Made by a program: the position numbers and the translations under genes. Of a stretch of DNA of 64,000 bases, positions 23,874 through 64,000 are shown piece after piece. Under the pieces are notes generated by a model. The model saw only the letters and a list, made by a program, of their open reading frames with translations. It made no database searches and was not told the DNA's origin. Location of the stretch: contig NZ_VIQO01000002.1 of NCBI RefSeq assembly GCF_007483665.1, forward strand, positions 186,001-250,000, given 5' to 3'. Numbering within the stretch: position 1 is the stretch's first letter; each line of letters begins with the position of its first letter. The stretch comes from Catellatospora sichuanensis (lineage in GTDB: Bacteria > Actinomycetota > Actinomycetes > Mycobacteriales > Micromonosporaceae).

Positions 23874-24310
23874 AGATCGAGCGGCTGCGCTGGTGGCAGA
23901 TCGAGGATCTGCTGCCGGTCGAGGCCGACCTGTTCGGCGCCGAGGCGTGGACCGCGGCGATGTTCTGGAACGAGCTGGCCAACGGCCACCACTACCTGAT
24001 CGCCACCGAGGACGACGGCACTGTGCTCGGATACGCCGGGCTGGCCGTCGGCCAGGGCGAGGGCTGGGTCAACAACATCGCGGTGCGCCGCGACGCGCAG
24101 CGGCACGGCATCGGCCGGGCCCTGCTGGAGGCGCTGCTGGCCGAAGGGCGGCGGCACCAGGTGAAGCAGGTGCTGCTGGAAGTCGCCGCGGACAACGCGC
24201 CCGCGCAGCGGCTGTACGCCGCCTACGGCTTCGAGGTGATCGGCATCCGCAAGGGCTACTACCAGCCCAGCAACGCCGACGCACTCGTGATGCGCCGGGA
24301 GGAGCCGTGA
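23870..24310 (+). CDS. rimI: Ribosomal protein S18-alanine N-acetyltransferase
   Basis: A 146-aa GNAT acetyltransferase. Acetyl-CoA-binding motif A is [24 protein letters not shown] (R-x-x-G-x-G/A), and the C-terminal [20 protein letters not shown] is the RimI hallmark. It acetylates the N-terminus of S18 and perhaps other proteins. Coupled to tsaB (ATGA). Its stop overlaps a GTG that opens the 33-aa bridging frame to tsaD. Confidence 0.92.
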
Positions 24311-24408
24311 CCCGGTGGGGCAAGGACGACACATCAGAGCGCAGCGAGCGAGCCATGGGGTGCGGGCAAGCTTGCGCCGCCGACGAGCGCAGCGAGGAGA
24401 AGGCGTGA
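24307..24408 (+). CDS. Bridging mini-ORF between rimI and tsaD (33 aa, SERSER...ADERSEEKA)
   Basis: This 34-codon frame starts at a GTG overlapping the rimI stop (GTGA) and stops in a TGA overlapping the tsaD GTG (GTGA). It fills the 94-bp gap completely. The peptide contains SERSERA and ends [11 protein letters not shown], encoded by the repeat GAGCGCAGCGAG. The same repeat supplies the AGCGAGGAGAAGG ribosome-binding site of tsaD. The same motif occurs at 10698-10740, 56873-56991 and in the array at 63695-64000. Probably a translational-coupling leader, not a functional peptide. Confidence 0.45.
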
Positions 24409-62314: not shown

Positions 62315-62450
62315 GCTGTCGATAGTCCCGCTGAGCTGGCCTGACCTGCCTCAGGCGGCGACCCTGAGCGGACCCTGAGAATGTGTGGCGGCCCATCTCC
62401 GGGGCCTCACCCGTGGGCGATGGCATCCACCTCGTGAAACCATCGACCCT

Positions 62451-63698
62451 GTGCAGCCCTCCGTGCCCGACTTCCCCCGCCTGACCCGCTCCCGTTCCGA
62501 CCGCCTGGTCGCCGGGGTGGCCGGGGGCATCGCCGCGAACGTACGGCTGTCACCCACGCTGATCCGGATCGCCTTCGTGCTGCTGCTGCCGATCAACGGC
62601 CTGGGCGCGCTGCTGTACGCCGCCTTCTGGGCCGTGCTGCCCGCCGGGCCGGGGGAGACCCGGCCCCGCTCGCTGCTGCGGCTGGCCCCCTTCGTGCTGG
62701 CCGGGCTGGCGCTGATGACGATCAGCACGCTGATCAACCACAACGGCGGCATCGGGATGACCGTCGGCTGGCTGGTCGCCCTGGTCGCGGTCGGCGCGGG
62801 CATCATCTGGCACCAGAGCGACCCGGACCGCCGCCAGCGCTGGTCCGACGAGTCGCCGTCGGCGCCCTGGCTGGCCGCCCTCTCCGACGGGGACCGCAGG
62901 ATCTACCTGCTGCGTTTCCTGGCCGGCGGGGTGCTGGTCGCGGTGGGCATCCTCGGGCTGGTCTTCCTCTACTCCCCGGTCGCCAACGTCTCCTGGGCGG
63001 ACATGTGGCGGGCGATCGCGTTCGCGCTGGTGGCGCTCGCCGGGGTGGGCCTGGTGGCGGCGCCCGTGCTGTGGCGCACGCTGACCGCGCTGCGTGCCGA
63101 GCGCGAGGGCCGCATCCGCGAGCAGGAACGCGCGGAACTGGCCGCGATGGTGCACGACCAGGTGCTGCACACGCTCGCGCTGATCCAGCGCAACGCGGGC
63201 GACCCGGCGGCGGTGCAGCGCATCGCCCGCGGCCAGGAGCGCAGCCTGCGCAACTGGCTCTACCAGCCAACCGGTTCGCCGACCGAGCACTTCGCCGCGG
63301 CGCTCCAGCAGGCGGCCGCGGAGGTGGAGGACACCTACGGCATCGCGGTGGAGGCGGTGGTGGTGGGTGACCGCATGGTGGACGACAAGGTTTCCGCGAT
63401 CGTGGCCGCGGCGCGCGAGGCCCTGGTCAACGCGGCCCGCCACGCCAAGGTCAAGACCGTGTCGTTGTACGCCGAGGCGGAGCCGACCATGCTGAGCGTG
63501 TTCGTCCGCGACCGCGGCACCGGGTTCGACCTCAACGGCGTCGAGGAGCGGCGGCACGGCGTCCGTGGTTCGATCATCGGGCGCATGTCGCGGCACGGCG
63601 GCCAGGCGGAGATCCGCAGCGAGGTCGGCGAGGGCACCGAGGTCAGGCTGACCATGGCGGTCACCTCGCCGAAGGAGCCGAAGGAGACGCCGGCATGA
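62451..63698 (+). CDS. PspC-domain sensor histidine kinase
   Basis: A 415-aa membrane kinase. The N-terminal PspC domain (SRSDRLVAGVAGGIAANVRL, about residues 14-70) and four to five membrane helices to about 205 precede a HisKA_3-type dimerisation helix with the phosphoacceptor His near 235 (MVHDQVLHTLALIQ). The HATPase domain has N-box AREALVNAARHAK and G-box RDRGTGFDLNGVEERRHG. It likely pairs with a LuxR-type regulator encoded beyond the window, and with the LiaF-like repressor upstream. The GTG at 62451 gives the conserved start; longer frames are non-coding. Its stop opens the mini-ORF chain. Confidence 0.9.
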   Translation: MQPSVPDFPRLTRSRSDRLVAGVAGGIAANVRLSPTLIRIAFVLLLPINGLGALLYAAFWAVLPAGPGETRPRSLLRLAPFVLAGLALMTISTLINHNGGIGMTVGWLVALVAVGAGIIWHQSDPDRRQRWSDESPSAPWLAALSDGDRRIYLLRFLAGGVLVAVGILGLVFLYSPVANVSWADMWRAIAFALVALAGVGLVAAPVLWRTLTALRAEREGRIREQERAELAAMVHDQVLHTLALIQRNAGDPAAVQRIARGQERSLRNWLYQPTGSPTEHFAAALQQAAAEVEDTYGIAVEAVVVGDRMVDDKVSAIVAAAREALVNAARHAKVKTVSLYAEAEPTMLSVFVRDRGTGFDLNGVEERRHGVRGSIIGRMSRHGGQAEIRSEVGEGTEVRLTMAVTSPKEPKETPA

Positions 63699-63760
63699 GC
63701 GGGCGGCGGCAGGCACGACAGGCATCGGGCATGGGCGAGCGCAGCGAGGAGCGGTCATGA
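63695..63760 (+). CDS. Coupled mini-ORF 0 after the kinase (21 aa)
   Basis: The ATG overlaps the kinase stop (ATGA) and the frame of 22 codons stops in another ATGA at 63757. It starts MSGRRQARQ and ends GERSEERS, a divergent first member of the repeat chain that follows. Translation is inferred from the overlaps only. Confidence 0.35.
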   Translation: MSGRRQARQASGMGERSEERS

Positions 63761-64000
63761 GCGAGCGCAGCGAGGCAATCGTGTGGCACGGGTTGGCTCA
63801 GGCATGTGACGAGCGCAGCGAGGAGCAGGCATGAGCGAGCGCAGCGAGGGAATCGTGTGGCACGGGTTGGCTCAGGCATGTGACGAGCGCAGCGAGGAGC
63901 GGGCATGAGTGAGCGCAGCGAGGGAATCGTGTGGCACGGGTTGGCTCAGGCATGTGACGAGCGCAGCGAGGAGCGGGCATGAGCGAGCGCAGCGAGGCAG
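63757..64000 (+). repeat. 74-bp tandem array of ATGA-coupled 25-aa mini-ORFs
   Basis: Three full units start at ATG 63757, 63831 and 63905, and a fourth at 63979 runs off the window. Each unit is exactly 74 bp and nearly identical. Each encodes 25 residues beginning MSERSE and ending ACDERSEE(Q/R)A. Each stop overlaps the next start (ATGA), and GCGAGGAGCGGGC sits before each start. The array joins the kinase gene to whatever gene follows the window, presumably its response regulator. Confidence 0.92.

Follow-up and report, generated by a model that had tools for sequence, protein, structure and literature searches.

Short dispersed DNA elements with folded ends beside a fixed tetranucleotide include REP elements and the MITEs derived from IS200/IS605. 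Mycobacteria carry a short repeat termed MIRU, the original paper on which is Supply 1997. MIRUs measure 40–100 bp and differ in copy number between isolates (PMC2734929); in a kinase–regulator operon, the units are 77 and 53 bp long, and a promoter has been reported in the senX3-regX3 intergenic region of M. tuberculosis (both PMC4213456). According to a 2025 review, MIRUs appear to be mobile, insert at start codons and carry an internal ORF coupled with −4 nt spacing, so that insertion has little effect on the gene; the same review names the ATGA overlap as the spacing seen most often between neighboring prokaryotic genes that lie close together (PMC12548453). A search of the open literature returned no report of such a family outside mycobacteria.

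The array considered here lies at a kinase/response-regulator junction in a window of 64,000 nucleotides of the Catellatospora sichuanensis genome. The upstream gene (62385..63698, + strand, with a putative start codon) encodes a sensor histidine kinase with PspC and HATPase domains (Pfam PF04024 and PF02518), and its TGA is part of the first ATGA. From there the + strand reads, in order, through a leader mini-ORF of 21 aa that overlaps the kinase stop (63695..63760, ending in a partial unit with the core at 63737), a further ATGA, three mini-ORFs of 25 aa each (63757..63834, 63831..63908 and 63905..63982) and an ATGA that opens the response-regulator ORF (63979..64000 within the window). The mini-ORFs were placed from the ORF list and the overlap chain, and the three full ones also by TRF, which scored the array at 495 with 95% matches. 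Because the window stops within the last, partial unit, the array was followed further along the same contig, where the regulator ORF continues at L009:4980-5654. This ORF is 224 aa long and of LuxR/NarL type, with a receiver domain (PF00072) and a LuxR domain (PF00196), and it begins with codons that belong to a partial unit (MSERSEAADMSGQRLRVFLVDDH). Six reading frames are joined in this way by five ATGA stop/start overlaps.

Much of the first-pass annotation of this array holds. The unit starts that it gave (63757, 63831, 63905 and 63979) are exact, its first link does overlap the kinase stop, by way of the leader ORF, and its count of five ATGA junctions is right once that ORF is included. 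The description of each unit as closing its own 25-aa ORF with a TGA over the next ATG applies to the three 74-bp units but not to the fourth ATG (63979), which runs in frame into the response regulator. Likewise, a GAGGAG had been placed at every junction and is found at four of the five, the kinase junction having AAGGAG, and the mini-ORFs called identical encode the same peptide in units 2 and 3, whereas unit 1 differs at 2 of 25 residues. A second copy of the element was found in the window by cluster search (24307..24408, + strand; L026); it consists of a single 33-codon mini-ORF with GTGA at both ends and co-directional genes on both sides, the following one of which we take, from its start, to resemble tsaD.

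The array is not a local oddity of a two-component operon, a possibility ruled out by 59 candidate clusters across the genome. The core GAGCGCAGCGAG occurs 113 times (55 + 58) in the window's genome, compared with 3 times (2 + 1) for a reversed control. Among the 100 of 113 matches listed, the surroundings were read for copies in fetched regions, and the common element around the core is about 71 bp long, running from ATGAGCGAGCGCAGCGAGCGAATC to GCCGACGAGCGCAGCGAGGAGAAGGCATGA. A script that begins in the coding frame upstream and moves on solely through [A/G]TGA overlaps found an unbroken chain from upstream gene through mini-ORFs to downstream gene in 45 of the 59 clusters, some of which are doubtful candidates (for example, the L207 cluster at 1571); the chain is broken in 12, and no same-direction upstream coding frame is present in 2. 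Mini-ORFs in the chains mostly have 17–36 codons, with 9 and about 50 also seen. The 12 loci with the core inside a gene gave no cluster and were judged by eye to be chance matches. A known Rfam family was rejected, as five searched loci gave no hits at the gathering score.

Within these clusters, the reading frame is conserved. Unit lengths were counted for 60 of 83 candidate rows (left end with at most 7 mismatches, length below 130 bp), and 58 of the 60 are 2 mod 3 (62, 68, 71, 74 and 107 bp), the exceptions being 69 and 70 bp; the frame is thereby kept, as a stop/start overlap of this kind needs. Moreover, 56 of the 60 units are open, against a mean of 39.9 (maximum 47) when interiors are shuffled at the same length and 13.9 (maximum 23) when the shuffle is combined with a one-base length jitter. 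Tandem and orthologous copies are not independent of one another.

Comparison with sister species shows the element present or absent at exact stop/start overlaps. Among 11 genomes, the window junction has a TAG and a short gap in three, a bare ATGA overlap in two and a partial or roughly single unit in five, and the window's genome has three units. The chain reaches the regulator in all eight genomes with an overlap at this junction; records of seven named Catellatospora species agree, five having the chain and two the TAG. Outside the genus, one of two genomes lacks the overlap, and the junction in the other was not located by script. For 13 other junctions, 90 places were read in eight sister genomes; an intact chain is present in 88 of them, and both breaks carry no element (94 junctions were located, and the four of locus L191 were left out). 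Of the 90 junction strings, 49 lack a mini-ORF and 31 contain the element, as one ORF in 25 and as two in 6; another 4 contain a single mini-ORF that lacks the core, and the last 6 did not parse into these classes. Copy number, compared between species only and at these 13 loci together with the window locus, is 0–2 in sister genomes at the 13 junctions and 1–4 there in the window's genome. Empty sites are exact: one species reads GGGC-ATGA-GCGAC where another reads GGGC-ATGA-[unit]-ATGA-GCGAC, each insertion adding one unit and one RTGA at the site. Loss of an internal junction turns two units into a single open frame of 46 or 47 codons. Unit changes that break junctions in relatives, which the first-pass annotation had considered, do occur in that an internal ATGA is lost, but the frame remains open to the last ATGA (37-codon ORFs at L042 and L043). 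Separately, L369 and L370, the counterparts of the L206 junction in two of the sister species, hold an unrelated 104-bp insert with GCAGTTTCGGGGAAACTGCA-type palindromes at the same ATGA, which is also open and 2 mod 3.

The element extends beyond Catellatospora. Its left core is found in 25 of 394 genomes of the class, the window's genome included, and a longer right core in 10 of 394, partly within other repeats. Of 30 loci, two belong to the window's genome; at the other 28, from seven families, every left-core copy reads in frame into a gene at least 60 codons long. For 27 of them the route is by closed units of 35–104 bp, 2 mod 3 in each case, and the remaining copy is fused directly to the gene. 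In 23 of the 28, the overlap is where the upstream coding frame stops; among the five others, one copy is the second in a tandem. Amplification of the core in Micromonosporaceae is confined to certain lineages, part of which lack the element's right end; genomes rich in GAGCGCAGCGAGG likewise do not all have that right end, and two extra bases reduce the counts to 2, 26, 17, 1 and 1 in five genera.

In the genus taken as Mycobacterium, 26 of 118 genomes have the left core within two mismatches, and a 65-bp family has a left end similar to that of the Catellatospora element. Among 30 loci, the 18 copies that meet a stricter pattern all lead in frame into a gene, 12 via mini-ORFs (65- or 32-bp units) and 6 by fusion. 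Elsewhere in this genus, junctions hold local tandem arrays in which the mini-units, with a core similar to that of the element, measure 35, 56, 62 and 77 bp; units of 27 and 36 bp (0 mod 3) also occur.

Several further observations concern individual loci. At L451, L458, L462, L467, L470 and L477, as at 63979 in the window, the left end continues in frame into the downstream protein and so extends its N terminus. An element or element-like insert lies directly before a gene starting MS(K/R)HTLS..., presumably related to ilvN/ilvH, at L183, L310, L320 and L323 in three families. A mycobacterial junction precedes a gene starting MSPRVGVTLSGRYRLQR, assumed here to be pknA-like, at L434, L435, L443, L446 and L448, where mini-units of about 35 bp reproduce the start of that gene. 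The cores in families f2, f36 and f39 (L211, L213, L214, L218, L220-L222, L224-L227, L229, L230, L233, L234 and L236) lie in other dispersed intergenic repeats with the core CGACGAGCGNAGCGAGGAG and were left out; these are mostly beside GAGGTG...CCTCGA or GTTGAG...CGAAACG and do not look like stop/start couplers.

The right end of the element carries a stem, TCAYGCC/GGCRTGA, that spans the next start codon. In a mutual-information scan of 80 sequences, the column pairs (-8,18) and (-10,20), both on one stem, rank first. Across 97 sequences, the stem is 84.1% paired with 23 double-change cells, compared with 25–42% and 4–18 cells for eight slid versions. Pair (-10,20) is Watson–Crick in 80 of the 97 (shuffles: mean 58.5, maximum 71), and covariation at (-8,18), (-7,17) and (-5,15) in the same set does not rise above the best shuffle. 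When 83 distinct right ends are folded as RNA, the mean z is −1.89 (13 above 0), compared with −0.13 in 120 control windows, and all three start-codon bases are paired in 52 of the 83 folds. The window's own unit folds weakly (z −0.41), and its internal guide base shows no pairing with the start codon.

The array is best read as a tandemly duplicated copy of a dispersed, MIRU-type mobile repeat that sits at stop/start overlaps and persists by being translationally transparent; we put the probability of this reading at roughly 0.8. Its insertion site would be an [A/G]TGA shared by the stop of one gene and the start of the gene downstream. The inserted mini-cistron would run from that [A/G]TGA to another one and would bring a Shine-Dalgarno-like GAGGAG of its own, together with a hairpin across the start codon that follows. 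A ribosome ending the upstream gene would re-initiate on the mini-ORF, open the hairpin as it translates and then re-initiate on the next cistron, a hand-on through the mini-ORF that would make insertion nearly neutral to operon expression. Once in place, a unit could duplicate in tandem. Two of the proposals in the first-pass annotation meet in this reading: its expanding selfish repeat is consistent with the element's dispersal, with copy numbers that vary patchily and with the exactness of the empty sites, and its chain of termination and re-initiation, by which the mini-ORFs would be translated, is compatible with the kept frame, the GAGGAG and the hairpin at the start codon.

The left end bears on one proposal for how the element would move: that it is a non-autonomous single-strand DNA transposon with folded ends serving as recognition sites for an HUH-type transposase (IS200/IS605- or RAYT-like), base 23 of the left end pairing with the base that opens the target RTGA. 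Base 1 of the left end (the A or G of the overlap) and base 23 are linked: among the 91 places listed of 143 in 25 genomes, the combinations are A/T in 50, G/C in 34, A/C in 6 and G/T in 1 (Fisher p 1e-17 among these matches; within-genome permutation, 84 observed and a mean of 73.8). Where neither base is constrained, the pair is A/T or G/C in 36 of 39 cases from the window's genome and in 28 of 31 from loci of the class, and in Mycobacterium there are 13 A/T, 5 G/C and no others. Each insertion also adds one unit and one RTGA. The letters between the two bases could pair as G-C steps alternating with tandem G.A, closed by a GNA-like triloop, a reading from the sequence that left-end folding energies do not single out. 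However, two old linked subfamilies would yield the same base table, and the two bases match in neither of the two T-start copies. Neither the DNA of the two ends nor the RNA of the left end folds better than shuffled sequence. Furthermore, the one transposase family tested, Y1_Tnp, occurs in 11 of the 22 genomes searched and is absent from some with many copies, among them G010, G052 and G066; none was identified for the element in these genomes, and a Y1 enzyme as a driver tracking copy number was rejected, since its presence does not follow the copies. The transposon proposal appears unlikely. Two hits with a C start and G at base 23 look like a different, non-coupled repeat.

A regulatory relay, in which the number of units tunes the regulator/kinase ratio as each re-initiation loses a share of ribosomes, is distinctly improbable. 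The architecture permits loss at every link and the hairpins cover start codons; nevertheless, copy number at the window junction and the 13 others ranges from none to four between close species, sisters have no, a partial or about one unit where the window's genome has three, and the same element lies between many different gene pairs. A promoter within the array that drives the regulator independently of the kinase has a precedent in senX3-regX3 (PMC4213456), but it would leave the frame conservation unexplained, and no sigma-70-like site was found in L009:3300-5900 (0.2 expected by chance), a weak test in an actinomycete; we consider it very improbable.

The peptides are under a different regime from their neighbors. 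Changes were counted in 14 ortholog pairs of single units, which are not independent; pairs whose members differ in length or at more than 22 positions were excluded. With 33 synonymous and 81 non-synonymous changes, the ratio after site correction is 0.79, whereas 139 flanking-gene blocks (1077 synonymous, 600 non-synonymous) give 0.24. The mini-ORF frame is kept while its peptide, unlike the flanking proteins, is constrained weakly. That the 25-aa SERSE peptides are functional small proteins kept for their sequence is scarcely credible and was rejected on these ratios: the open frames and the recurring SERSE...ERSEE peptide would suit it, but codons at the left-end tip vary (SER to EHR, ECR or ELR), with the letters on both sides mostly staying.

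The transparent-repeat reading carries the MIRU concept beyond the mycobacteria for which it was described, to several further families of actinobacteria. A broader and still tentative version, possible but more probably wrong than right, is a pan-actinobacterial class of mobile elements that target stop/start overlaps, with MIRU as one branch: an internal guide base would match the target RTGA, the mini-cistron would hand ribosomes on and operons would absorb several copies. The operons themselves form a natural series of 0 to 4 mini-cistrons between the same two genes, through which the expression cost per termination–reinitiation step becomes testable, as does the hiding of mobile DNA in operons by staying translatable.

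Compared with the MITEs of IS200/IS605 and with REP elements, the Catellatospora element is also short, dispersed and set beside a fixed tetranucleotide; it differs in having a mini-cistron and a sense orientation in operons, and the Y1 family does not track it. As to folded ends, covariation speaks for pairing and DNA folding energies do not stand out. It shares its junction with ordinary ATGA-coupled gene pairs, but here the upstream cistrons are repeats that are absent from the same junction in relatives. The closest likeness is to MIRU. Both are short and lie dispersed and in tandem between genes (a few Catellatospora units fall outside 40–100 bp), copy number at a locus varies, here as seen between species, and nearly all Catellatospora units are 2 mod 3, as are the 77- and 53-bp MIRU units, with a kinase–regulator operon among the hosts in both cases. 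Unlike MIRU with its mycobacterial host, the element occurs in Micromonosporaceae, here in Catellatospora, and in six or more further families of the class, and beside MIRU it has a shared left end with the A/T–G/C link and a right-end hairpin over the start codon, the likeness being one of description. The element is filed as the same kind as MIRU because its anatomy fits the description in the 2025 review (PMC12548453).
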